Assembly (NCBI RefSeq): GCF_032118995.1
Contig: NC_092648.1
Location: forward strand, 1,813,001 to 1,877,000
From: Asterias amurensis
Lineage: Eukaryota; Echinodermata; Asteroidea; Forcipulatida; Asteriidae
Reading direction: 5' to 3'
DNA: 64,000 nucleotides
Shown here piece by piece: positions 1 to 18,926 of this stretch. The stretch's first letter is position 1. Every line of letters starts with the position of its first letter. A program made the position numbers and the translations under genes. The notes beneath the pieces are model-generated. The model was not told the DNA's origin and ran no database searches. It worked only from the letters and a program-made list of their open reading frames with translations.

Positions 1-1540
1 GCTAATTTAGCTAAGATATCTGTTTTTTAGACAATCTGCAATTATGATGTCACACAATTTGCGCTAGCTTTGCTTTTTCACTTTTGTATTAATTTTTCTT
101 AAAAATGGTATGATTAAGGGATTTTAAGTTAGTGCTTTGTGTAAAAGTATATTCACCCATAAAAATGTCAACAAATGAGATTTAGTAAGTCATAACAAAG
201 TTTTTTTTCCAGATTCTCTGTAAACATTCCTGGTTTTGATTTGTCTAGTAAAATTAATCTTATTTGCAACTACCAAAAATATGCAACACCCATGAAAAGG
301 TCAACATTGGCCCCTAGGGACTAATATTAGATTTCCATGTCACCATAAAGAGCATTCTAATAATGGAGAAATACAGTGAACCTTGTCACTTTCAAAATAA
401 AGTATAAAATTATCATCCTTTAATATTGGGTCAAAGTTCGAGGTTTTACCAGTGGCCAGTCACAAACAAGACCTACTGGCTTGTGAAGGACATATTTTTC
501 ACAAAATGTAAACTTTTGAGTTGATTTTTGTTTTGCTTTAACCTTTCAATTGATTGGTCTTTGTCTGTCAAGAAACCTTAATAGTTGACAATATATGTGA
601 CCCCTTTAAAATTAAACTTGTGGAATAAATTAAGTGCACCATACAGAGTGCTTTTTTAATTAGATACATTTAAAGGCAGTGGACACTATTGGTAATTTTC
701 AAAGACTAGCCTTCACAGTTGGTGTATCTCAACGTATGCATAAAAAAACAAACCTGTGGAAATTTGAGCTCAATCTGTCTTCGAACTTGCACGATAATAA
801 TGAAAGAAAAAACAACCTTGTCACACAAAGTTGTGTACGTTTAGATGGTTGATTTTGAGACCTCAAGTTCTAAATATGAGGTCTCGAAATCAAATTCGTG
901 GAACATTACTTCTTTCTCGAAAACTATGGCACTTCAGAGGGAGCCGTTTTTCACAATGTTTTATACCATCAACCTCTCCCCATTACTTGTCACTAAGAAA
1001 GGTTTTATGCTAATATTCATTTTGAGTAATTACCGATAGTGTCCACTGCCTTTAATTATCCTGGTAAGGATTGTCTAATGTTTATTGATATCCAACTTCA
1101 GGAGTTAAAAATACACACAATGTGTGCTTTGTTTGTAAATGGTGAGCTTACTTTGTACAATAACATTCCTTAATTTAACTGTCTTAAATCTTACAAATGA
1201 AATCAACCAGTATCCAAGATTACTTGATATTTTGAATGCCTTAACGATATTTAATGTTTCCATTATTGATTGCTCCCCTTAAACCTTGAAGCCTTCAAGA
1301 TTGTAATGCTATAAAGTTATTGTGTTTATAAAACGACCTGAGAATTTCAGCAAACTTTCTGGTTCTTCAGCATAATATCTCAATAATATTCATTGCAAAC
1401 TATATAATTAGTGTTACACAAAACTGTGAATACTTTATTTAACATTAACATCTTAAACTGATCTAAAAAACATCCATATCTGTACCATACAACCAACTTT
1501 TGATAATTCACCATAGGCGGTATGCTTTAAGGAAGGGGTG
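1..1540. other. No gene seen; AT-rich DNA with one hairpin MITE
   Basis: I see no exon with convincing splice sites and conserved protein content here. The only clear structure is the inverted-repeat element at 670-1055. The short open frames inside that element (around 831-1039) come from the repeat itself and recur in its other copies. Confidence 0.6.
670..1055. mobile_element. Hairpin MITE, family P (GGCAGTGGACACTATTGG ends)
   Basis: Terminal inverted repeats begin TTAAAGGCAGTGGACACTAT and end with the reverse complement. The interior carries the family marks: a 'gagacctcaagttctaaatat' type hairpin centre, 'acaaccttgtcacacaaag', and 'aggttttatgctaatattca'. No coding capacity. Further copies in this window lie at 9204-9552, 52492-52802, 53858-54223, 59975-60339, 60943-61325 and, degraded, 32936-33281 and 23326-23858. 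TTAA at both ends suggests a TTAA or TA target site. Confidence 0.85.
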
Positions 1541-1744
1541 TTAATCAAAAACATGTTTACTATTTTTTAAATCTGTAATCAATCTGTAGGGACCAGCCAC
1601 GCAAAATGGGTTGGACTGGCGTCCGCATAATTTCCCCATTAATGTTGTGGCATGTGAGAAGATATTATGTTGTATAAGTGCTGCAAAAACAGACCACTTT
1701 TTGATGTTAGTGAAAACCATCCACAGGGATTTTACATATACCTC

Positions 1745-1828
1745 TGTTCGGTTGAAAGTCACTTGATGAGCACTTGCAGGTCTCAAGAATCGACAGGTAG
1801 ATATCACCTGCAGATGGCGCACCTTCAA
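1745..1828 (-). repeat. Diverged module copy at the left end of the array
   Basis: On the minus strand the segment after a TTTTGAAG or CTGCAG acceptor-like site reads APSAGDIYLSILETCK in one frame and RHLQVISTCRFLRPASAHQV in another. Both frames resemble the modules at 2362, 2823 and 8833-10306. No donor was identified. It is probably a further decayed copy; a terminal exon cannot be excluded. Confidence 0.25.
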
Positions 1829-2361
1829 AATAAAAACAAATTACATCAATTACATATTAAGTCAAACAAAATCTTACTCTATCAAGTAATAAACTACAAG
1901 AAAAACTGACTGGGTAAATTTGTAATGATTTTGGGTTGAGCAAAGAAAAGTTTACTAAAGCAGAACTTGAAAATGTTGGTGCTACACCAACTGAGCGATA
2001 GCCCTATATTGGTGCTCCTACTAATCACTCTTGCCGATGTGTTTGATTCAGTGGAAATCAGATATTCAAATCATTTCTTTGCCTCTCAGTTGCCCTTTCC
2101 CAACCCCCAAATATTTGAGTCTGGCACCAAGGCCAGTCTGGAGACTCCTTTTTTAACAAGGTGTTTTAAGGAAATTGCAATTCCCTTCAAGCATGGCTGA
2201 AAAGGAAATTATTCCTTGAGAATTTCAGCCAAAACCTGCTCTTCATTGAGATTTCATTGTGATTTCACAGCAGAGAATTTTCATCCCTAGAACAAGAAAT
2301 ACTTGAATTCATGCTCAAAATCTCATGATCCATTTCAAATTGATGGTTTTCATAAATTTAC

Positions 2362-2458
2362 CTGTTAATGGAGAAGACATCGTTGAATCCTAAGCTGGGT
2401 TGTATTCCCATCATGCATCTACTTCTGGAGAGGTAGACTTCATCTGACAATGGCGTGT
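2362..2458 (-). repeat. Exon-like module A, copy 1
   Basis: The minus-strand acceptor is GCCGCAG and the donor is CAG|GTAAAT. One frame is open throughout and contains TPLSDEVYLSRSRCMMGIQP. Another contains a stop and then an ATG encoding MSSPLT, which joins in phase to the acidic exon (MSSPLT|ETKPYQQ). The second reading would make this a 5' UTR plus start exon. Nucleotide identity with copies 2 and 3 is high across the exon and both splice sites. Confidence 0.45.
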
Positions 2459-5400
2459 CTGCGGCTAGCCTATAATGGGAATAAAATATGAACAACATTT
2501 TGTGAAAGGGAAACTACTGACTAGGTCTTTAACGGAACTTGAACAAAGAGAACTTGCTGCCAAACCATACCAGAAACACAGGAACAAGCCCCTCACTTTC
2601 ACTGGGAGTGTTCTGGGTTCTTTTACATGTTTACAAACAAACAAGACCTACAGCTGTATGCACCTTCCAGAGGATGAGGCAAAAGTGCCTTGCTCATCAA
2701 AATTACACGCAACAACCGGGATTTGAACCCAGTTGGAAGGGTTAGTACATGTTTACTATTTTTCCCAAAGCCTAGCATCATCAAACTGTCTAAAATGTCA
2801 AATAAAAGGTTCATAAATTTACCTTCTGTTGGAGAAGACATCGTTGAATCTTAAGCTGGGCTGCACTTGCTCACATCAAGCACCTACTTCTGGAGAGGTA
2901 GACTCCATCTGACAATGGCGTTTCTGCGGCTAGCCTAAATGGGAATAAAATAAAAACAACATTCTGTGAAAGAGGTGTGTCTTGGCCGAGGAGATAAGAG
3001 CACCGGACTCAAGCTCTGGTGCTTCTGTTCAGCAGAGTTTGGGTTTGAGTCTCGGTCGTGACACTTGTGTCCTTAAGCAAGACACTTAACTATAATTGCT
3101 TCTCTCCACCCAGGGGTAAATGGGTACCTGTGAGGGCAGAGATGGTTCTTGTGATTGAGTTAACTTAGTGCCCTTTATGTTTCACATTGTTCGTATTATG
3201 TGCTTTGCAGTTATTTGATATACATAAGTCACTGGCACAAGCCAATTAACTTTTTATTGTATAAAAAACAAACTGTATGTAAACACAAGATGTTTTTTTT
3301 TTTGGGGGGGGGGGGGTAAAGTTCAACATATCTATTTTTATAAATCTCTGTATTTTAAACTCAATTCAGCCTTTGGCTGCAATGTTTGAATGTTTTTAAT
3401 AAACCATTAATGTTAATAATATTTGTTGCACAGGCTGCATACTCCCCAGGGATCTAAGATGGTTTAAAGAAAGAACTAAATGACCCAGTGATCACGGGTT
3501 ATAATGTTGGAGCGCTTTGAGAAGCCCTTACCGTGTGAAAAGCGTGATATAAAAACCAATTATTAATTACATTCAAAATGTGATTTATGAGAACACTGAG
3601 TTCAATTCATAATGGAACTTGTTTGTCAACGTACTTGTTTCTGGATGAAGGTGGGGTCTCAGGAGAAAGTCTGTTAGCCTTCTCAATCTCATCATCTTCT
3701 TCATCATCGGATGAACCATCCTCGTCTTCTTCCTCATCGTCTCCCAGACCATCCAGATCTTTAAGCTTAGCCGACCCCTGAGAGCTCTGCATCATCTGCT
3801 GGTAGGGCTTGGTTTCTGTAAGAGAAACAAGTTTTTTTTATTGGAGTTGCCAGAGTGAGGTGATTCTCAACGAGTGGGAGATACAGCAGAAAATAATGCT
3901 ATGGGAGTCAAATGTAAACAATATTGTGAAAGGAGTGTGTCTTGGCCGAGGAGATAAGAGCACCAGAGTCGAGCTCTGGTGCTTCTGTTCAGCAAAATAT
4001 GGGTTCGAATTCCAGTTTTGAAACTTGTGTCCGTAAGCAAGACACTAAACTATAATTGCTTTTATCCACCCAGGGGTAAATGAGTACCTGTGAGGGCAGA
4101 GATGGTTCTTGTGATTGATTTAGCGCAGTAGCGCATCTTTGTAGCGCAGGCTGCATAGTATATATATAAGTCACTGGCCAATTTACTTTTTAATGTATAA
4201 AAACAAATTGTATGTAAAAACTAAAGTTTTTGGGGATACATTTTAACATATCTGTTTTTATAAATCTCTGTATTTTAAACTCAATTCAGCCTTTAGCTGC
4301 AATGTTTAAATGTTTTTAATAAACCAGTAATGATAATAGTATTTGGCAGGACAGGCTGCATACTCCCTTTGAGAAGCCCTTCCCATGTGAAAAGCGTGAT
4401 ATAAAAACCAATTATTAATTACATTCAATATGTGATTTATGGGAACACTAAGTTCAATTCATAAGGGTATTGGTTCATCAACGTACTTGTTTCTGGATGA
4501 AGGTGGGGTCTCAGAAATGGTAGCCTCATCGTCTTCTTCATCATTGGATGAACCATCATCTTCATCTTCCTCACTGTCTCCCAGACCATCCAGATCTTTA
4601 AGCTTAGCCGACCCCTGAGAGCTCTGCATCATCTGCTGGTAGGGCTTGGTTTCTGTAAGAGAAACAAGTTTTTTTTATTGGAGTTGCCAGAGTTAGGTGA
4701 TTCTCAACGAGTGGGAGATACAGCAGAAAATAATGCTTAGCAAATTCTTTCGCAAAGGAAAATAAATAAACGGTGCACTAGTCTTAACAGTGCAAACTTT
4801 AAACTATGGAATTTGAACTGGTAACCCGTTTCTGCTAAGCAAGGTTTTCGTGTGCTTAGCAAGCTTTTTGTGCCTAGTTTCTGTTCGCCTACTGGATCAT
4901 TTTAGAGCATAAATCAGAACTCAAAATTTTGCCAACATTTGACAAAATGCCTGGACTTACCCCTTGGCGTTTTACAATTTGGGGCCCTTTTTCAAGTTTC
5001 AATTTGTCCCTAAATAAAGCTTATATCTAGGTTCAAGTTGCATAAGTTTTTTTTTTTTTACATGTTTACAAACAAGCAAGACCTACAGCTGTGTGAACCT
5101 TCCAGAGGATGAAGCAAAAGTGACTTGCTCATCAAAAGGAAATGCCACAACCGGGATTTGAACCCAGTGGTAAGAGGTTACTTAAAATATTTTTCTCAAA
5201 GCCTAGTATCATCAACCTGCCCTCAAATCTCTTCTACATTTCAACTTAAAGTTTTATAATTTACCTGTTGATGGAGAAGACATTGTTGAATCTTGAAGCT
5301 GGGCTGCATTCCAATCATGCATCTACTTCTGGAGAGGTAGACTTCATCTGCAATCGGTGTGTCCTGTAGCTATCTTAAATGGGAGTCAAATGTAAACAAT

Positions 5401-8400
5401 ATTCTGTGAAAGGGGTGTGTCTTGGCCGAGCAGATAAGAGCACCAGAGTCGAGCTCTGGTGCTTCTGTTCAGCAGAGTGTTGGTGCAAATCCCAGTTTTG
5501 AAACTTGTGTCCGTAAGCAAGACACTAAACTATAATTGCATACACCCAGTGGTAAATGGGTACCTGTGAGGGCAGAGATGGTTCTTGTGATTGATTTAGC
5601 GCAGTAGCGCATCTTTGTTGCACAGGCTGCATACTCCCCAGGGAGCTGAGATAGTTCAAAGAATGACTTTATTGGCCCAGTGACCAGGGTTTGTTGGAGT
5701 GCTTTAAGAAGCCCATCCTGCTTGAAAAGTGTTATATGAAAACCAATTAATATCATTCAAAATAGAGTTAAGGGAACACTAAGTTCAAATCATAAGGGAG
5801 TTGGTTCATCAACGTACTTGTTTCTAGATGAAGGTGGAGTCTCAGGAAAATGTCTGGTAGCCTTATCACCTTCTTCATCATGTATGAACCATCCTCGTCA
5901 CCTTCCTCACTGTCTCCCAGACCATCCAGGTCTTTAAGCTTAGCCGACCCCGGAGAGCTCTGCATCGTCTGCTGGTAGGTCTTGGTTTCTGTAAGAGAAG
6001 CAAATTTTTTTTATTGGAGTTGCCAGAGTGAGGTGATTCTAAACAAGTGGGGGATACAGCAGAAAATAATGCTTAGCAAATTCTTTCGCAAAGGAAAATA
6101 ATTAAACGGTGCACTAGTCTTAACATTGTAAACTTTAAACTATGCAATTTGGACTGGTAACCCGTTTCTGCTAAGCAAGGTTTTCCTGTGCTTAGCAAGT
6201 TTTTTGTGCCAGGTTTCTATTTGAGGACAATTTTTGTTGTTGGAGTTGCCAGAGCTGAGATTATTATCAACAAGTATGGGGTACAGCCACTCCTTTGACA
6301 CCATGGCCCAATTTCATTAAGCTGCTAAGCAGAAACTCTTTCTAAGCAGAAACTCTTTCTGCTAAGCAAGTATTTTTTTTATTTTAAGCAAGCTTGTTTG
6401 TACCTACAGGATTTATAAATAATGGCCCTGTTGTGAGTGTGGGGAACAAAGCCACGGAACACCAAGGCTTGATTTCATGAATTTGCTTAAGCACAAAAAG
6501 TTGCTAATATTTATAACAATAACACAAAGCTTACAAGAATTAGATTACCAGCTAAAATACCATTGACATGTACCACACATGTCACTGGTATCCTACTTAA
6601 TGTTATATAGGATTTGAGGCATTGCATGGTGAGGTATCAATGTATATTTGATTTGCGGTAACACCATGTGTGTATCTACTTGCCAGGTAGAGTTTGTTCT
6701 AAGAGAACTGCCTTGCTTTATTCTACTGCCGCAGAGTAGATAATCGGAGGTTCGGGAGACTTCTCAGTTCAGAAAAGAACTGTCCTGCTTTTTAACTATT
6801 ACCAGGGCGGATGGTATAGAAAACAAACTGGACTACTACTTTAGCTTATAGGATCGTAATTAACTGTACTGCCGCGGAGTCAGTTCTGAAATGGTCTCAC
6901 TGTTTCGACTAGCTTACTTTATAACACCCCTTGCAAGTATTGTGCCTGCTCATTGGTTTAGAGCGCGTCACATGACATGTCTTAGTTTTGCTAGACGACG
7001 GCCGTGTGATAGAGCGTTGGTTTGCCATGCGCTAGTCCGAAGACTAGCACATGGCGCCGTGCGCTAGTCCGACAGACTAGCACACGGCGTGCAGTACCCA
7101 GACGTCCGTTGCGTGTACGAGGATGATAAATTAATAGTCTGTAACCATTTCGGATTGTCCGACACTACATGCAACACAGTAGGTAAAAGTGTTTGCAATC
7201 TGTGTTCGCGTCGTCCGTGGATTGTAGCATTCAGGTCTGTAACTTAATAATAATAATACAGGTTTTAGAAATGTTTGGGGTGTTATAAAACAAATATTGA
7301 CTGCTTTTACTCGTGCAATGGTTAAAAACTATGACTCCCTCGGTGATCCCCGGAGCGTTCTATTTTCCCTCGGCTTCGACTCGGGAAAATAGAACGCTCC
7401 GTGGATCACCTCGGGAGTCATAGTTTTAACCATAGCACTCGAAGCAGTCAATATTTGTATACTAGTCATCATCAGAAGACTACTTAATGTTGCTAGCAGA
7501 AAATGTTCAGCAAAAGTTCTGCTTAAACAGCTCTATGAAATTAGGCCGTGTTTAGACATCTAGTGTCTAAGCAATATAAAAGAAATTGTCACAGACATTG
7601 TTTTATGGAGCTATAGTTAGTTACCTGTTAATGGAACGGAAAGACCCATCAAAGAAACTGTCGTGACTAACTCAGTCAGTTTCAATCGCTGGAGTTTCAT
7701 TGTCACCAGTCCCTCTGAGATCTAGGCGTGGAACTGAAAATTCAAGGAATAGAAGAAAAGGAAGTTTAGACTCGGCTATATACAAATGGAACCATTCAAT
7801 ATGGCTGTCATGTCTGAATTGATGTCTGTGCTACGGTTGTTGCTTTGCTTTGGTTAAAGGTAGGGTTAGAGATTAGTAAATTGGTTTAAAACAATTTATG
7901 CCCCAAACACTTACTTGGTATTCCCTTCCAAGTAATATGGTTTGGATACCCCCCAAAAAAACATTAGAATCTGAGAACCGATTCATGCGTGATTCATTTC
8001 TCAGATTTGTGAGGACGGGTGTCCCTTGTTTACAAATGCTGGAGCCAGAGATGCAGTTGATGCCTGCTGTCACCTCACTAAACGTGGATTGATTCAACGT
8101 TTTTGATGAAATTAATGCAAAATGTTATTTTTGTCAATTTTTGTTTCAACTAGTAGTAGACACTGTAGGTTTCACTGGTGACTTGAATTGCGTCCTTTTA
8201 ACTTTTCCTATATAAGAATTACATTGACAAAACCCCAAGGGTTCTAACTGCCTCTAGCTACCGGGCAATCTCGGTAGTCTAGTTGGTAAGACACTGCTCT
8301 CGAATTGCAAGGGTCATGAGTTCGAATCCCACCCGAGTTATTATGCCTGAGATATTTGTTCACAGGACTCGGGAAAGTACTGAGTATACAGTGCTAACGC

Positions 8401-11400
8401 ACAGCGGTGTATGGGTAAAAACCAAAATTAATCTTCTTTATCCCCAATGCAAATTTAACATCTATTAAAACCAAATCTATGACCCTATTATGAAGGAGCC
8501 TATATGGCAGAGGGGGTTAATTTACCAGAAATTGTACACAGGTACAAACACCCTACAGTGGCACTTTCTAAAACTGGGCAAAAGGTTGTTTTCTTTTCTT
8601 TTTGCTGTGCCCGATTATTCTCCATTCTTTTAACTGATTTCGGAAGGACAGTTTCCCCACCCCCTAAGGGCAAATGCGTGTGTCTTAAACAATGTATTTG
8701 CATCTCACTTGCCCCTCCTTCTTGTCCCACATGAAATCAATATTTAGCAGCTGGAACTACCTAAAGAAGGTAATGCTTAATTTGATAGAAGAAAACTAAC
8801 AACTGTTTCCATGTTCAAAAGTTTTCCTTTACCTTTTATCAAGGAGAGAGCAGTTCATTTATCGGACTCTTTGTACATTGTTAGGAAGCTCATCAACTGC
8901 AGTTCTCAGACATCTTCTTGGTTGATGAGTAGATCTCTGTGGAGATGACTAACCTCCCTGTATCATGCGAACAAAGAACACAATAAAGGTTTACTTTGAC
9001 ATTAATAAGTAATGAAACACAAGGGTAGTTGACATTCCAGCAAAATTGTCAAGGAACGAAGGGCAAAGTTTAATCATTGACAATTTTAATAAAAGACTCT
9101 AATTGGGTAAGGGGGTCACAAAATCAGAGGGTTTGTAGTTCAAGGTTCATTTTGTTTCCACAGTTTCAACAATTTAAAGACATTATCTCTCAAGAGCAAT
9201 CAGTTTAAAGGCATTGGACACTATTGGTATTTACTCAATGGTATTTAAAACATTGTGAGAAACGGCTCCTCTGAAGTAACATTGTTTTTGAGAAAGACGT
9301 AATTTTCCACTCAAATAATTATTTGCATTTGATTTCAAGACCTCCAAATTAGATTTTGAGGTCCCAAAATCAAGCGTCTGAACCCACACAACTTGTGCAA
9401 CAAGGGTGTTTTTTCTTCCATTATTCTCTCGCTACTTCGTTGACCAATTGAGTTCAAACTTTCACAGGTTTGTTATCTAATGCACAGGTTGAGATAGACC
9501 AAGTGAGAAGACTGGTCTTTGACAACTACCAAAGGTGTCCAGTGCGTTTAAATGGTTGCAAAACAACACATAGACATATTTACTGTTTAATTTCTTGAGA
9601 ACCCAATTTGAGACTGGGTGAAAATAAAAGATTTCCTTTTTGAGGACTTTACCTTTCAAGGGTGGTTTCATTATCACTGGCCAGTCTTAGTCATCTAGGG
9701 CCTACTTGTTGATGGGTAGACATCTTTAGAGATGGAAACCTGATGACTGAAACACAAACAGAAATGTAGTGTTTGTAAGATGAGCGATTGAATAATTACA
9801 AATCATTCAAACAGTTCAGTTTTAAGAGTAACTATAAATATAAATATGAATAGTAGACTTGCGGGTACAACCATGTGTGAAATCTCTTTGAGGGAGTGTT
9901 GGCTATGAAAGAGCCGGTTAGGTCTCAACGTTTTGAACAGTACACTCTGCTCGTCTTCAGGAGAATCAGTTTTAAGTAGTTACTTATCTCATCAGGAGTT
10001 TGTAATTACTTCCAATCAAAAATACTTGCAGAACACCAACAATGAAAACAGGAAAACTAGTATCCAGAGGTTTTTTTGCATATTTTTCAAGATAAATTAA
10101 GGTAATTTGCAGTTGGAGAGAAGGTGATGCTCAATTTGAATGAAGGAAACTAACCGTTTTAATGTTCAAAGGTCTTCCTTACCTTTTATCAAGGAGAGAG
10201 CAGTTCATTTATCAGACTCTTGGTACATTGTTAGGAAGCTCATCAACTGCAGGTCTCAGACATCTACTTGGTTGGTGAGTAGATTCTGTGGAGATGACTA
10301 TCCTCACTGTATCATGCAAACAAAAAACACAATTAATGCTTGACTTTAGCTTTGATATTAATAGATATTCATAATACCTCAGACAGTTTCGCTATGGTGG
10401 AAAGCGCGTCACGTGGGTGCAGTGCTGCGTGGGTGTGTATAAACCTTTGTTTATGACCAGTGAAAGTGTTAAAACATGGGCGTGACACGCGAGCTTGCAC
10501 CTGTGCTTATAAGACAGTTTCTTCATTCCTATTGGTCGAGAGAAACGGCCGGGACAGTTGTGCCACATCACGCGATACGCGCACAGCAATCCCTCCTTGT
10601 TGTACAAAATAGTGTGTTTTCAGAAAGGAATAAAAGGCTTCTGGCCAGAAGTCTTTTATATTTTAGTGAGAAATTACTAAATTAGATTGTGGCAATCAAA
10701 ATCAGTCCTCAGAAATTGAGTCCTCAGAATGCAAAAAATCTATCAAATGTCATGCAGTATATTTATGACCTAAATCCCATTTCAAACCCAAGGAATTTAC
10801 CAGTTACTTGAGAGTAGAGGTCCTTTATTATGGTTGGTCTTGGACATCTACTTGTTGACGGGTCAATGTCTTTGAAGATGGTAAGCTGGTGACTGAACAG
10901 TGACTGCAACACAAAACAAAATCCAATATTTACAGATTCATAATTTGTTTTTGCATCATGACCAAAGTGTGTTTTAGATCAGTTATTTTTACCTATTAAT
11001 AATATACAGTAAACCAACATTGAACATGGCAATTGATATTTTGGAGAAACTTGTGAATATTAGGATTAAATGTGAGTGTTGCAATCATAAGTAACTGGAA
11101 TTTTACAACACAACAAACACTTGAAACAGTTCTCTTGACAATTGGTGCTGGTATGACCATAATTATCAGTAAGCTCTCAGAATAAAACCAATCTAGCAAA
11201 GACAGGAAATGCAAAATTTCTGTCTTGATAAGCGTTCAGCATAAAGCGTTTTAAAAGGACTGTCCCAAATTCGCAATCCAGCACGTCAACTCTGAAACGA
11301 TTACCACACAAGATAAGACATCTTTAAATGATCTTAAACACATTGTAATGCCTTCAGAACACGACTGATACTAACTTTGTGTTTAAAGGGTGGCTGCAGT

Positions 11401-12857
11401 GGTTTTTTTTTAAATTTAAACGATTAAACGTGACTTTTTAAACCTGAAATTTTATTTTTTATTTTTTATTAAATGCGCAAGTATTTTAAAAATGGTTTTC
11501 AAGAGATTAGGGGAATCCACCTCGCCCCTAAAAAGGAGCATAAACGTGACGTCATGTCGGGAACCCGAGCCGTCGGGCCCCCTGGCTGCGTGCATATAGA
11601 GACGTGTGCACTGTGTGGCCTGGTACCTAGGCGTGTAGTTATGGACCAGACTCTTTTTGCCAACGATATGTTTTAATTCCCGACGTGACGTCGATGGTAG
11701 GGGGCGGTAACAATCCACCAAAGGGGGGGCATGACTTATTCGCTAATTACGCAAGTGAGATATGTCGGGGGGAAAACAAAACACATTTTATTGAGGTTCA
11801 ATACATTATCAGAAATAAATGACAGCAAAATTAACTGTTTTATTTTAATTCACTGCAGCATCCCTTTAAAACAGATCAGAACTTGACATTCTCCACAATT
11901 GCTAGAGAACTAAACTCTTGAATCTACATGAATGATAAGATAAGAGTGTTATTACCTGTGTCCTATTTTAGGAAACTACCCAAATGCAGCTCATTTACTG
12001 AAAATCTACTTGGTGGCGGGTAGATTTCTTTGGAGATTCTAAGCCTGGCAACAACAAAAATACAGTTTGCATCATTAGTGATAACAAACAATTGGATTTT
12101 GTGTATACTTTCAATCAAAATTAAATGAAGAAACCAAACACTGATAACAGCAAAACACAATTGCGGGGACTTTATCTTAATCAATATTGTTAGTCTTGTT
12201 GGAATCTCAATTTTGTTTGAGGGGGACTACCAAACACCAGAAACAGTTCTCTTGGGGATTGGTGCTGGTCTGAACTTTATTATAACCTTATTTGTGGTGT
12301 GTTGAGGCCGAGTGGTTTAGGACACTGGACCCAAGCTCTGGTGTTGTCAGCAGCAGAGTGCGGGTTCGAATCTCGGTCATAACACTCATGCCCTTGAGCA
12401 AGGTACAACCATAATTTATTCATAAAAAGTTGGGAATGTGTGAAAATCTGTTCTACCAGCCAGGCACCTACGGATGATATGTGTACGTCCTTACGGACTG
12501 TGAAGGCGGTTACCCAGGCTATTTCCGCCCCAGGAGTAGGTCGCAACATGCCCTTGGGGCAGTGAGGTATCTCTCAGAATGAATCTAATCTGCAAATGGC
12601 TTACAAATTTGAATTACCAAAAGGTGAAAACACCAAAAAAGCAAGACAAACACATGGTAGAAGAAATCTTACTGTCATTTGAAGACAACCAATTGCTGGG
12701 TTGTTCGGTCATGGTCCACAGATGAACAGCCATCGTCTTGATGCCATTATTGACGTTGTTATACATGTTGCTCTCCTTTATACTATGTAGCCTTCAGCAA
12801 CGTCAGTAGAGGTGACTCCCTGCACTTGATTTCGAGGAACAGTTTATAGCTGAATCT
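2362..12857 (-). CDS. Unrecognised multi-exon gene with tandemly duplicated exons (acidic protein)
   Basis: I do not recognise this gene. On the minus strand there is a candidate first coding exon (12673-12857, ATG at 12766). It is followed by a series of short exon-like modules with acceptor and donor consensus: 11956-12044, 10801-10903, 10183-10306, 9653-9746, 8833-8957, 7625-7733, 5265-5363, 2823-2923 and 2362-2458. Three copies of an acidic exon lie at 5818-5988, 4487-4652 and 3635-3815. The acidic exon starts with ETKPYQQMMQSSQGSAKLKD, continues with a Glu/Asp/Ser tract, then ETPPSSRNK. The ATG exon and the modules at 10801, 7625, 5265 and 2362 all end in a phase that joins the acidic exon in frame. 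The exon after the acidic one is not identifiable, and the 3' end may lie left of the window. Several modules carry in-frame stops, so this may be a mix of live exons, alternative first exons and dead copies. RNA evidence would settle the structure. Confidence 0.35.
2622..2742. repeat. Dispersed repeat linked to module A (copy 1)
   Basis: This block contains 'acaagacctacagctgt', 'ccttccagaggatga' and 'aaccgggatttgaaccc'. It recurs at 5058-5175, in each case just below a module A copy, so it was carried along by the segmental duplication. The last motif resembles a B box on the minus strand, suggesting a tRNA-derived origin. Confidence 0.6.
2823..2923 (-). repeat. Exon-like module A, copy 2
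   Basis: The acceptor is TGCGGCAG-like (CTGCAG reading GCCGCAG) and the donor is GAAG|GTAAAT. The DEVYLSRSR-type frame is interrupted by a stop. The downstream ATG frame reads MSSPTE. It is closely similar to copies at 2362 and 5265, with small indels. Confidence 0.4.
2973..3563 (+). mobile_element. tRNA-Leu-like SINE (family 1) with internal insertion
   Basis: The head matches a tRNA: A box-like TGGCCGAGGAGATAAGAGCA, anticodon-arm region 'ggactcaagctctggtgc', and B box-like GGGTTTGAGTCTCGG. A conserved body follows (CTCTCCACCCAGGGGTAAAT, 'ggctgcatactcccc', 'gaagccctt', 'gtgaaaagcgtgatataaaa'). About 250 bp of unrelated sequence, including a T/G homopolymer at 3294-3315, splits the body. The same SINE sits at the same place in the neighbouring units at 3933 and 5413. 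Confidence 0.8.
3635..3815 (-). CDS. Acidic exon, copy B1 (open)
   Basis: The acceptor is TCTTACAG and the donor is ACAA|GTACGT. The exon is 181 nt and open in the frame that starts one base into a codon. It encodes ETKPYQQ, MMQSSQGSAKLKDLDGLGD, a 23-residue Glu/Asp/Ser tract, IEKANRLSPETPPSSRNK. The composition suggests a disordered acidic segment. I know of no family match. Copies B2 (4487-4652) and B3 (5818-5988) share both splice sites. Confidence 0.5.
3933..4415 (+). mobile_element. tRNA-Leu-like SINE (family 1), duplicated with its unit
   Basis: Same head and body as the copy at 2973, with the same flank 'gtgaaaggagtgtgtcttgg'. Shared flanks show that it was copied by segmental duplication rather than by an independent insertion. 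Confidence 0.8.
4487..4652 (-). CDS. Acidic exon, copy B2 (open)
   Basis: The acceptor is TCTTACAG and the donor is ACAA|GTACGT. It encodes ETKPYQQMMQSSQGSAKLKD, LDGLGDSEEDEDDGSSNDEE, DDEATISETPPSSRNK. It differs from B1 mainly by in-frame indels in the acidic tract, as expected for a coding copy under frame constraint. Module A3 at 5265-5363 lies upstream and joins in phase, giving MSSPST|ETKPYQQ. Confidence 0.5.
5058..5175. repeat. Dispersed repeat linked to module A (copy 2)
   Basis: Second copy of the block at 2622-2742 ('cttccagaggatgaagcaaa', 'caaccgggatttgaaccc'), again adjacent to a module A copy. Confidence 0.6.
5265..5363 (-). repeat. Exon-like module A, copy 3 (open)
   Basis: The acceptor is GCTACAG and the donor is AACAG|GTAAAT. 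The exon is fully open in one frame (DTPIADEVYLSRSRC, then a shifted tail). An ATG near its end gives MSSPST, which joins the acidic exon in phase. A one-base difference from copy 1 after 'cccagctt' changes the frame of the last third. Confidence 0.45.
5413..5748 (+). mobile_element. tRNA-Leu-like SINE (family 1), third copy in the array
   Basis: Head with GCCGAGCAGATAAGAGCACC, then the usual body to 'gtgttatatgaaaaccaatt'. Same flank as the copies at 2973 and 3933. Confidence 0.8.
5818..5988 (-). pseudogene. Acidic exon, copy B3 (frame disrupted)
   Basis: The splice sites match B1 and B2. The start reads QSSPGSAKLKDLDGLGDSEE, but the frame is lost within the acidic tract, and the frame that continues reads unrelated residues (SYMMKKVIRLPDIFL). 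The 'ETPPSSRNK' nucleotides survive in another frame. This looks like a dead copy. Confidence 0.45.
6007..6215. repeat. Flank of the duplicated unit
   Basis: The stretch starting 'tttattggagttgccagagt' and ending near 'gtgcttagcaagttttttgt' matches 4669-4880, and its first part matches 3838-3900. It marks the right edge of the repeated segment. Confidence 0.6.
6604..6760. mobile_element. Fragment of the TTTGCGGTAACACCATGTG inverted-repeat element
   Basis: Shares 'tgaggtatcaatgtatattt', 'gcggtaacaccatgtg' and 'cttgccaggtagagtt' with the fuller element at 51606-51965. Confidence 0.6.
6918..7289. mobile_element. Nonautonomous DNA element with TTTATAACACCCC ends
   Basis: The ends are TTTATAACACCCC and its reverse complement GGGGTGTTATAAA. 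The interior is unusually CpG-rich for the window. It holds two adjacent small hairpins at about 7026-7053 and 7058-7087, each with the core GCGCTAGTC...GACTAGCAC. No coding capacity was seen. Confidence 0.65.
7290..7459. repeat. Near-perfect palindrome abutting the previous element
   Basis: The left arm starts 'acaaatattgactgctt' and the right arm ends 'aagcagtcaatatttgt'. The arms also pair through 'atgactccctcggtgatc' and 'gagcgttctattttccc'. The centre is 'tcggcttcga'. This is a hairpin MITE or an extruding palindrome. Confidence 0.8.
7625..7733 (-). CDS. Possible coding or first exon C of the unrecognised gene
   Basis: The acceptor is TTTTCAG and the donor is AACAG|GTAACT. From the ATG at 7700 the frame reads MKLQRLKLTELVTTVSLMGL, then SVPLT, ending in the phase that continues into the acidic exon (VPLT|ETKPYQQ). 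The donor side resembles module A (CCATTAACAG|GTAA). The exon is supported only by splice consensus and phase. Confidence 0.3.
8237..8465 (+). mobile_element. tRNA-derived SINE, family 2
   Basis: The head 'tctagttggtaagacactgc', B box GAGTTCGAATCCCACCCGAG, then a body with 'ctcgggaaagtactgagtat' and 'tgtatgggtaaaaacc'. Other copies lie at 54779-54966, 57172-57345, 17588-17668 (partial) and, on the minus strand, 42800-42900. It is treated as a SINE rather than a tRNA gene because the same body follows each head. Confidence 0.8.
8833..8957 (-). repeat. Exon-like module E, copy a
   Basis: The acceptor is GATACAG and the donor is AAAAG|GTAAAG. One frame reads SPQRSTHQPRRCLRTAVDEL, then PNNVQRVR and a stop. 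It is about 90 percent similar by eye to 10183-10306, including 60 bp of flank on the donor side. It shares the core 'ctacttg(g)ttg(a)tgagtaga' with the modules at 9653, 10801 and 11956. Confidence 0.5.
9204..9552. mobile_element. Hairpin MITE, family P
   Basis: The ends are TTTAAAGGCATTGGACACTA and GTGTCCAGTGCGTTTAAA. The interior is colinear with the copy at 670. Confidence 0.85.
9653..9746 (-). repeat. Exon-like module E, copy b
   Basis: The acceptor is GTGTTTCAG and the donor is GAAAG|GTAAAG. One frame gives VSISKDVYPSTSRP then a stop; another gives FPSLKMSTHQQVGPR then a stop. No frame is open across it, so it is a non-coding exon or a dead copy. Confidence 0.4.
9848..9985. repeat. Copy of the 'gggtacaaccatgtgt...gctcgtcttcag' repeat
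   Basis: Shares 'acttgcgggtacaaccatgt', 'gtgttggct' and 'actctgctcgtcttcag' with 46181-46380, 45120-45255 and 60520-60640. Family not identified. Confidence 0.5.
10183..10306 (-). repeat. Exon-like module E, copy c
   Basis: A duplicate of 8833-8957 with flanks (10110-10340 versus about 8767-8995). A one-base deletion in the core shifts one frame. One frame then reads VISTESTHQPSRCLRPAVDE, LPNNVPRV and a stop. The splice sites are retained (GATACAG; AAAAG|GTAAGG-type). Confidence 0.5.
10801..10903 (-). CDS. Exon-like module E, copy d (fully open)
   Basis: It has an excellent acceptor (TTTTGTGTTGCAG) and donor ACTG|GTAAAT. It is open from end to end for 34 codons: SLFSHQLTIFKDIDPSTSRC, PRPTIIKDLYSQVT. 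It ends one base into a codon, the phase needed for the acidic exon (QVT|ETKPYQQ). This is the best candidate among the modules for a translated internal exon. Confidence 0.4.
11382..11870. mobile_element. Nonautonomous DNA element, TTTAAAGGGTGGCTGCAGTG ends
   Basis: The left end TTTAAAGGGTGGCTGCAGTG pairs with the right end CACTGCAGCATCCCTTTAAA. Subterminal arms also pair, for example 'acgtgacgtcatgtcggga' with 'ttcccgacgtgacgtcgat'. The centre is GC-rich (about 11520-11660). No coding capacity was seen. Confidence 0.75.
11956..12044 (-). repeat. Exon-like module E, copy e
   Basis: The acceptor is TTGTTGCCAG and the donor is CACAG|GTAATA. Joined to the ATG exon at 12673 it would read NDSLESPKKSTRHQVDFQ then a stop, giving a 46-residue protein. 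The other plausible frame reads RISKEIYPPPSRFSVNELHL before its own stop. Confidence 0.4.
12296..12580 (+). mobile_element. tRNA-Leu-like SINE, variant tail
   Basis: The head is GAGGCCGAGTGGTTTAGGAC with B box GGGTTCGAATCTCGG. Its tail differs from the copies at 2973-5748 and includes 'ttccgccccaggagtaggt', seen again near 30520-30620. Confidence 0.75.
12673..12857 (-). CDS. Candidate first coding exon of the unrecognised gene
   Basis: The acceptor is CCTCTTTCAG and the donor is TGACA|GTAAGA. About 90 nt of leader precedes an ATG at 12766 in the context AGCAACATGT. The frame gives MYNNVNNGIKTMAVHLWTMT, then EQPSNWLSSND, ending one base into a codon. That phase fits both the module at 11956 and the acidic exon. 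No family is recognised. Confidence 0.4.
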
Positions 12858-12859
12858 CT

Positions 12860-14845
12860 GAAAGAGGTTTACATATAAAACAAATCAGTATGCATTGATG
12901 GGTGGTTACAAATGCTGGTGGTGACCCCCCTGCCCCCCCCCCCTTCCCCACAGAGTGTCAGATTGTATATTTTTGTTGAAAATTAAGCTTATTTCCGCTA
13001 ATGAGAATATTAATTGAAAATTAAACATGACCCCACTAGAGAATGATTAAAAAAAGGGAAGGAAAGTTCGACTGCGATTTAAGATGAGAGAGGAGACAGG
13101 ATGGAGGACAGAAAGGGGAGAGTTGGGTGGGGGAGAAAAAAATTAAAAATTCTCAACATATTTTACATCTAATTTTTTTTTAAACTGCATGGTCCTCTTT
13201 ATCTTATGATTATGAAAATTATTTTACACTTTTCAACTTTTCCCTTATATTTTACCCAATCGATTGAATTGAATGTATATTCTAACAAACGAGTAAACAA
13301 AAATATCGTTGAGGAAATTATTGCATCGAGCGCAAAATTTTACATGATATAGCAAATAATGAGTCTAAATATTCCTTTAGTTAGGTAAAAAACAAACTAA
13401 AAGAATTACAAACTTCCCCCATTTTGAAATTTTAATCATTTTGACTTATTACGAACATCACTATTTATTCACTTTCAGGGGAAATGCAATTTTTAGGATG
13501 ATGTTTCTGTGGTGGAGGTTAAAATATTCAGGACAACGTAAAATCAAAGTCAATAAATGTAACGTACACTAACATAACACAACCAACATAACACTGCCAA
13601 CACTAACACTAACCATGCTAAACAGTGATTTTGGCTTTGCTGGGGGGGGGGGGACACCAATCCAATGTCAATGACCAACAAATTATCTGTTCAATTTGCA
13701 TCCAAACAAGGTGGACTAGACATTGGCCAAAATGCACCATCATTGCTATTGCTGTTGTCGTTGAGGAGACAACTTATTTGGCAAAGAAGGTTCTGTGTCT
13801 AAACTGAATTCTGTGTCTAAACGGATTCTTATGAGTTGGTTCAACTGTACTGCTGTATGTACAAATGGGATGCGGTTTTTAATCTTTGCATTTTGTGCCG
13901 AAAACACCCCTAAATTTCTCAAAGTTTCACCGATGAAAAATCGTTCTGACATCTTACTTTAATAAACAAGAACATTATCAACTCACCAACGCACGTTTTT
14001 CAGTAGTTTACCCTCGGAACTCCTGTGAAAACCTTGTTTTTTGAGCAAAAGTCATGACGTCTAAAGAAAAAATAGAAGAGTCTTCCAAATTTTCGCGGCA
14101 CCTCGTTTGTTTGCATTTAAAAGCCCCACATGATACGGGTGAGACTATTATTTTGAAGGGGGTTAATAAATCGTTTCATTATTAAACTAATTTTTAACCG
14201 TCAATATTTGTATTGACTGGCAACATAATTGCTTCCTGGGGATTAAGAACAGTATCTTTTGAAGAAAAAAGAAGACAATTTGAAATAAATAAATCAAAAT
14301 GTTTGTCTTGTCTTGAAAATGTAATCACCACCACTACCCATTTAATAATTCCCAAGTCTAACATGTGACTGAGAAAGCTGTCTTTGTGGAGGGGGTACAT
14401 GAGCCAATAACAATTGGTCAAACTGTATAATTTCTGATGTTTTTATGTTTAAACTCTGACTAAAACTTTCAAAAGGTCCTTGAGAACAAATGTTTTGAAA
14501 CGAAGTGTTGGGTTCATCAATTTCTTACAAAATATGTTATAAAAGGCGTGCCCAACCCACCTTTGCCCCGCCCACCCACATTATGTACGTGGTTAACTCT
14601 TGAGGGCGGTACATAGTATTTTATTTTTTACAAAATGTAGTCTGTGCACTTTTTGTGCAGACTTTGATTACGTTGAACTAATGTTAGAGAAGTCTGGGGA
14701 GATGAACATTGAATGTTATTGTTTTTGTTGATTTTATTTTACACACGTGTCTGACCTGCTGACTGCTGTACTACACAACACCCACCACTCAGCATCACGA
14801 TCAAAATATCGCCCTCTGCTATAGAACGTTAGAAAGGGCTTAGAA
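12860..14845. other. Intergenic; probable promoter region between divergent loci
   Basis: Contains C and G homopolymers (12929-12950, 13642-13652), an AT-rich stretch, and short minisatellite-like 'aacataacac' repeats at 13565-13615. The unrecognised gene runs left and ALKBH6 runs right, so the segment could serve both promoters. No TATA box was assigned. Confidence 0.4.

Positions 14846-18926
<4,081 letters not shown>

Follow-up and report, generated by a model that had tools for sequence, protein, structure and literature searches.

The nine related exon-like modules that occupy the minus strand in the first 16 kb of the window (the whole stretch of 64,000 nucleotides analysed, C1:1813001-1877000) are best interpreted, with a probability that we would place at roughly three in four, as exons of one member of a multicopy family of mRNA-like long noncoding RNAs in Asterias amurensis, the only species covered by the genome searches (491,506,623 bases in 23 contigs). 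A recurring architecture, a lack of coding constraint, a retained donor site, a strongly constrained mini-intron and 3' element, and an RNA helix are all evident in the DNA itself, and it is from these features that transcription and splicing of the family loci are predicted. Confidence was set no higher because the constraint on the B-type exons is modest and the order of the modules differs. The open-licence PMC text searched contained nothing on a starfish family of this kind.

As deduced from the best-preserved loci, the full plan would comprise a 5' promoter-like block containing a short first exon, a variable number of duplicated noncoding exons of about 90-125 nt belonging to two types, B and A, a last module-like exon, an intron of about 60 nt, and a terminal exon bearing a conserved stem-loop and often a poly(A) signal. 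On this plan the modules would be brought together by splicing as a tandem-repeat array that precedes a structured 3' domain, and the predicted product is a polyadenylated, spliced noncoding RNA whose body is a tandem repeat and whose end is structured.

The module array in the window

The nine related minus-strand modules are present at the places where the original prediction had put them, and consist of five A-type modules, three B-type modules and a last exon (a slash marks each splice boundary):

11956..12044, minus strand: A-type module; acceptor TTGCCAG/, donor ACAG/GTAATA
10801..10903, minus strand: A-type module; acceptor at 10903 or at either of two AGs no more than 18 nt further in
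10183..10306, minus strand: A-type module; donor AAAAG/GTAAGG; splice-site scoring and profile match
9653..9746, minus strand: A-type module; splice-site scoring and profile match
8833..8957, minus strand: A-type module with relatives genome-wide; genome search with the best 40 of 55 candidates scored
5265..5363, minus strand: B-type module; splice-site scoring, genome search, alignment and profile match
2823..2934, minus strand: B-type module; splice-site scoring, genome search, alignment and profile match
2362..2469, minus strand: B-type module; splice-site scoring, genome search, alignment and profile match
1742..1822, minus strand: last module-like exon, preceding the mini-intron; the A profile matches 1771-1843 (E 0.002)

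Eight of the nine coordinates given earlier proved to be exact final exon bases; the ninth module also exists (1822-1742), but the 1745 assigned to it is 3 bases off the true donor. The accompanying claim that splice-like sites had been kept was upheld, with an acceptor-like and a donor-like site recorded at each of the nine modules. When 15.5 kb of the minus strand was scored, the exon-final bases 11956, 10801, 10183, 9653, 8833, 5265, 2823 and 2362 fell within the 60 top donor-like sites, and the acceptor-like sites 12044, 10903, 10306, 9746, 8957, 5363, 2934, 2469 and 1822 within the top 80. The donor of the ninth module, GAG/GTATAT, lay outside the 60-best list and starts a 61-nt intron kept family-wide.

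Profile searches of the first 16 kb, using A and B profiles built partly from the window's own eight modules, recovered on the minus strand all five A and all three B modules, with E values from 1e-15 to 4e-54, and matched the ninth module, which was not among the profile sequences, weakly (E 0.002 with A; 0.026 with B); the same A and B profiles gave no module match on the plus strand of these 16 kb. An exon-like segment at 12671-12857 gave weak matches only and was kept out of the parts list. Absent from the original prediction were a probable first exon (end 13987), a structured last exon (from 1680), and membership of a family of at least 45 loci.

Neighbouring and inserted sequences

Head to head with the array lies an ALKBH6 gene (15550-17520, plus strand), the joined exons of which match the solved ALKBH6 chain 7vjs (E 6e-55). 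Within the array itself the following exons appear to have been captured:

7625..7733, minus strand: apparently captured exon with a stop (by eye); copy of an exon also at C1:3.713 Mb
5818..5988, minus strand: apparently captured acidic-repeat exon, copy 3, frame-shifted; second site at C1:3.713 Mb
4487..4652, minus strand: apparently captured acidic-repeat exon, copy 2; second site at C1:3.713 Mb
3635..3815, minus strand: apparently captured acidic-repeat exon, copy 1; second site at C1:3.713 Mb

The acidic exon, present in the window (three copies) and in the related arrays c136, c264 and c430, and its neighbour, present in the window, c264 and c430, are apparently exons of a protein gene captured inside the array. 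Protein searches with the acidic exon gave no convincing PDB or Pfam match.

A 45-bp inverted repeat at 7325-7427, with arms 93% complementary and 13 nt between them, is perhaps a small inverted-repeat element, and a tRNA-like sequence at 8268-8340 on the plus strand, which scored above the Rfam gathering score, is possibly the head of a SINE.

Host genes of small RNAs are characterised by tandem noncoding exons with drifting introns, a likeness that counts in favour of reading the array as a host gene for intronic snoRNA or microRNA arrays with the exons as by-products, as does a hairpin at 7318-7433 that matches a microRNA family (E 7e-6), albeit far under the gathering score of that family. 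However, an Rfam search of window 1-15500 revealed no snoRNA or microRNA family at gathering score, the tRNA at 8268-8340, outside the modules, being the only feature to pass, and no intronic island was found to recur at a fixed distance from the B modules; a host gene of this type is considered highly improbable.

Related arrays elsewhere in the genome

A genome search with the module at 2362 placed all of the best 40 of 125 candidates in ten clusters, eight of them on C1 and the other two on C8, each being a same-strand array of modules. B copies at the nine loci other than the window exhibited 85-92% identity, far above chance, and their alignment defined an exon of about 107 nt with a common core. 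Six clusters (C8_6890, C8_7156, c821, c1043, c1190 and c2072) consist of B modules followed by one or two A modules and then the last exon, and three (c136, c264 and c430) of B modules plus the last exon without A; the window copy is atypical in order, with five A modules upstream and the B modules after them.

The modules were consistently accompanied by the 3' element described below. Each of the best 40 of 55 A candidates was followed on the same strand by a copy of that element within 8.9 kb, and each of the best 40 of 125 B candidates within 12.2 kb, the A hits belonging to 23 different element copies and the B hits to 10; lone or divergent copies could escape such searches, in which the best 40 candidates only were scored. 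For any one hit, the chance of a same-strand element in the 20 kb downstream is about 0.0009. Genome-wide occurrence as an ordinary dispersed repeat, which the original prediction had named as evidence that would count against it, was borne out in so far as modules were found at many loci, but not in that every scored A or B match lay upstream of a common 3' element on the same strand.

As a check on prediction, two loci chosen for their possession of the block and the element (L055 and L056) were each found to contain three full or nearly full B modules followed by A, the order typical of the six clusters with B before A; their last exons gave weak matches (E 2e-4 to 0.24), yet had already been aligned earlier in 600-base stretches.

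At the L042-type loci on C8 (4.70, 5.48 and 6.07 Mb) the region preceding the element is duplicated 1.2-2.2 kb upstream, and exon duplication may also have occurred in this subfamily, where no B module scored. A first-exon-like match (L003, C1:1783555-1783708, E 1e-6) and two A-like modules (L002, C1:1796111 and C1:1796851), all on the plus strand, probably represent a decayed family member facing the window's copy from the opposite strand; no element copy was found in L001-L003.

Promoter-like block and first exon

A common block precedes the first B module in seven clusters; within it GCCGCCATTTTT, which we take to be a YY1-like motif, was present in all seven cases, ATGCAAA in five and CCAAT in four (counted by eye). 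The first exon ends ATG/GTGAGT in six clusters and ATG/GTAAGT in one. A genome search with the block yielded 15 hits, 13 of which had a same-strand element downstream, at 12 of the 45 element loci; no element lay downstream of the hits at C6:23765077 and C1:505622, and 33 of the 45 element loci gave no block match in this DNA search. By profile, a first-exon match was gained at c821 and, weakly, in the window:

13974..14055, minus strand: probable first exon, 3' part and donor; exon end at 13987, GTTG/GTGAGTTG

The window first exon scored 19.2 bits (E 5e-6) against a profile of the seven others, compared with 8.2 bits for the best of 30 shuffled strands, and is weak in that the promoter-like upstream part was not recognised and TTG stands where the seven have ATG. 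The window copy extends from this first exon (end 13987) to the AATAAA at 1439-1434. That the modules are alternative first exons, as had been suggested, is unlikely, since they carry acceptors and 12 of the 45 loci have a separate first-exon block upstream of them.

Coding potential and constraint on the modules

Counts for the B exons were made on 58 copies from ten loci, two of the 60 rows, which were not B modules, having been left out. In the 66-nt core of these 58 copies distinct synonymous changes occurred at chance level in all three frames, and when all related changes were counted, synonymous changes stood 1.6 sd above expectation in frame 0 and 3.9 sd below it in frame 1. Indels that were not multiples of three made up 63 of the 76 recorded, the 46 exons in which acceptor and donor both occupied the consensus position had lengths distributed 19:18:9 among the three classes modulo 3, and no surplus of synonymous changes was detected in the terminal exon. 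The earlier observation that reading frames differ and stops are present was confirmed, with 20 of the 46 B exons (43%) open in some frame compared with 39% of shuffled ones.

A protein-coding family with mutually exclusive or cassette exons, of which the window copy would be a partly decayed representative, could draw on the open frames of 51 and 99 codons that contain the module at 2362 and the last exon respectively (the module at 5265 being in a shorter one, by eye), on the ATG that ends the first exon at 7 of 7 aligned loci (TTG in the window), on acidic exons that are open in six of seven places, and on a slightly raised third-position divergence. The corresponding B divergences climb with codon position (0.072, 0.099 and 0.125). 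These points are countered by synonymous changes at chance level, by exon lengths in the ratio 19:18:9 and by indels out of register with codons, the terminal exon behaving likewise; moreover, the first-exon ATG joined to a typical B exon would yield about ten codons (by eye), and the acidic exons appear to have been captured from elsewhere. A coding family is very unlikely in our estimation. The single phase class and open frame of a mutually exclusive coding cluster were not found among the B exons, and the proposal of mutually exclusive coding exons in decay was contradicted by the lack of any frame with a synonymous excess, by lengths in all classes modulo 3 and by a donor that was the best kept of the GT and AG sites of the module.

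Donor GT was present in 57 of the 58 B copies, compared with 29-53 of 58 for the other consensus GT or AG sites, and the acceptor AG occupied its consensus position in 47 of 58, which is not above the level of internal AGs. The comparison of substitutions at splice sites with those inside the modules, put forward with the original prediction as a check, came out positive for the donor but not for the acceptor. Relative to the B consensus, divergence rose from 0.06-0.18 in the exon to 0.20 in the polypyrimidine stretch and to 0.26-0.29 in the flanks, and farther from the exons introns aligned in 7-33% of pairs. Because the copies had been found by their exon, a control was conducted with 50 cross-locus B pairs, not independent of one another, in which the introns aligned on both sides: divergence was 10.6% for exons and 14.2% for introns, and in 36 of the 50 pairs the exon was the slower. 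The module at 2362 differs from its counterparts in three close relatives by 8-14%, and the intron by 10-17%. Constraint on the B exons is therefore no more than modest, in contrast to that on the donor and the 3' element.

As regards the earlier interpretation as a whole, these data fit a set of duplicated, UTR-like noncoding exons that have retained their splice sites and do not fit decaying coding exons; the finding in the window stands, though with another meaning, probably that of the exon array of one gene in a large noncoding RNA family.

A candidate RNA hairpin in the module core (TCTAC..GTAGA) was rejected, being broken by substitutions in the B alignment (by eye). The heptamer CTACCTC, presumably a let-7 seed match, occurs in 34 of the 58 B copies and is absent by eye from the A modules.

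The mini-intron and the 3' element

An element of about 200 nt (window 1538-1747) directly follows the last exon in each of the ten clusters. Copies were recorded at 45 loci (22 on C1, 16 on C8, five on C6, and one each on C16 and C20; 22 on one strand and 23 on the other), a lower bound given that the searches scored the best 40 of 46 and the best 40 of 50 candidates. In this part of the window the following features were assigned:

1681..1741, minus strand: 61-nt mini-intron; GTATAT, branch-point-like CACTAAC, TTTTTGCAG
1676..1699, minus strand: short hairpin straddling the mini-intron 3' splice site; outer pair with few supporting events
1596..1651, minus strand: conserved stem-loop with compensatory changes; alignment of element copies
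1434..1680, minus strand: terminal exon, running to AATAAA at 1439-1434

The splice signals of the mini-intron are close to invariant: AG/GT followed by A or G is located 46-71 nt ahead of the acceptor in 38 of 40 copies (the exceptions being GAA/GTACGT and one copy cut by the locus edge), CTAAC occurs in 38 of 39 rows (the remaining row being cut), and GCAG/CAC in 39 of 39. When the window is compared with c264, c136 and c430, its three close relatives, the mini-intron and element show 0-1 substitutions per 197 aligned bases plus a 3-base gap, while three intron stretches just upstream are 10-17% different, the last exon 4-8% and the 200 bases past the element 3-5%. For C8_6890 against the window the equivalent values are 7% in the mini-intron, 10% in the element, 23% in the last exon and 24% in the nearest intron stretch, the figure for the part containing the module at 2362 not being meaningful as the sequences there do not correspond. 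AATAAA (ATTAAA in one instance) is found 99-126 nt past the element in 6 of the 10 loci, ahead of a GTTTTGTG stretch; in c821, c1190 and c1043 AATAAA is present only at +311, and in c2072 the nearest signal is ATTAAA at +287.

A mobile element, for example a retrotransposon with a structured 3' tail and internal repeats resembling exons, would likewise account for at least 45 similar copies, on both strands and with a conserved 3' structure, and for the occurrence of SINE-like and minisatellite repeats within the same units. It would fit less well with the restriction of the copies found to parts of five chromosomes, with C1 gaps of at least 63 kb, with a distance of 4-16 kb from block to element, with the retention of donor, branch point and 3' splice site, and with an element that is conserved where the intron has drifted; a mobile element is judged unlikely.

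A block of about 485 nt with tRNA-like parts, situated beside a minisatellite, is present 3' of each of the ten arrays (L001 7344-7827 and equivalents); the C1 copies are 83-86% identical to that of C8_6890, and the block looks like SINE material.

RNA structure of the element

For structural alignment 40 of the 45 element loci were fetched and L048 was left out, giving 39 rows of which 35 were distinct. In the resultant 17-pair structure 98.4% of pair cells were paired across the 39 copies. The covariation score was 0.214 compared with 0.105 in shuffles, none of 500 of which reached 0.214, and it fell to 0.150 or less when the structure was slid along the alignment, a comparison that favours the true register in that the structure was drawn from the very sequences scored. 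Six pairs had changed on both sides, a number reached by 9 of 500 shuffles, and further pair types were not exceptional, 494 of 500 shuffles reaching them.

The main helix takes the forms AAUGG/CCAUU, UUUGG/CCGAA, CUGG/CCAG, UUGG/CCAA, CUUG/CAAG and UUGA/UCAA (here the slash separates the two arms), and mismatches occur in it at one locus (L024). An outer helix with G-C, G-U and A-U forms was added by RNAalifold; eight changes among these three forms were traced for one of its pairs on a tree built from unpaired columns. On the same tree three changes fell to the outer pair of the splice-site hairpin and one to the inner helix, so that both of the latter are thinly supported. Tree counts for the helix arms (13 states, 12 changes) include 4 of 39 mis-parsed rows, and the table of arm forms is the reliable one. 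No Rfam family matches the element, the sole match (E 2.6) being on the opposite strand.

Recent segmental duplication plus gene conversion could by themselves have produced the observed conservation, with nothing functional now remaining. Large alignable stretches around several loci, an element almost identical among the window, c264, c136 and c430, and B exons just modestly slower than their introns are all in keeping with such a history, but compensatory pair changes between diverged subfamilies and the near-invariant donor, branch point and 3' splice site are not. These two latter observations point to selection at the RNA level over the history of the family; duplication without function is regarded as quite unlikely.

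Spacing along chromosomes

The copies found lie along two chromosome ends. On C1 the 22 copies are distributed over the first 5.5 Mb, neighbours being 63-519 kb apart with a mean of 255 kb and a coefficient of variation of 0.48, and on C8 gaps of 213-1160 kb (mean 449 kb, coefficient of variation 0.59) extend over the first 7.2 Mb. Uniform random placement was as even in 0.00015 (C1) and 0.018 (C8) of trials, an evenness that was noticed post hoc and that undetected copies could alter. The median Hi-C domain in Asterias amurensis is given as 190 kb in PMC13317027, a value that makes one copy per domain a testable idea and nothing beyond that. It is conceivable, though doubtful, that the loci constitute a chromosome-segment long noncoding RNA system with approximately one copy per chromatin domain, acting in cis via the repeated exons and the stem-loop; were this so, each RNA would be a large-scale regulator of its own chromosome segment.

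Implications and comparison with known systems

If transcribed, these loci, at least 45 in number, would represent a large long noncoding RNA family whose members have a covarying structure in common, and that shared structure would render function testable by conservation. Such a family, in which exons are free to vary in number and length and the donor and 3' element are held, would also offer a natural experiment on selection in noncoding exons. The stem-loop may, in a further and uncertain step, serve as the invariant functional domain, and module number and length might be free to drift because neither frame nor exact number would matter.

SNHG14-type snoRNA host genes likewise possess short noncoding exons that have been duplicated in tandem and have retained their splice sites, and it is the introns of these genes that carry the product. 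In the present arrays, by contrast, no intronic product was found and the conserved part is the terminal element. Rfam families possess covarying structure as does that terminal element, yet none of them matches it.

In the long noncoding RNA gene Firre, as described in the portion of PMC4820808 consulted, a local repeat termed RRD is carried by 7 of 13 human and 11 of 23 mouse exons, and acts as a nuclear-retention signal that binds hnRNPU. By analogy with these RRD exons, the repeated exons of the starfish RNAs might, with due uncertainty, provide a multivalent binding platform. As in that description of Firre, a noncoding gene with an exon-borne repeat would give rise to a repeat array in the spliced RNA (PMC4820808). 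Unlike the Firre repeats, which the same portion of the source describes as local to one locus, the layout reported here is common to at least 45 loci, and the common last exon bearing a stem-loop is a feature of the starfish family that forms no part of the Firre description in that text (PMC4820808). Firre would appear to be the nearest described case, the proposed likeness being one of layout rather than of homology.
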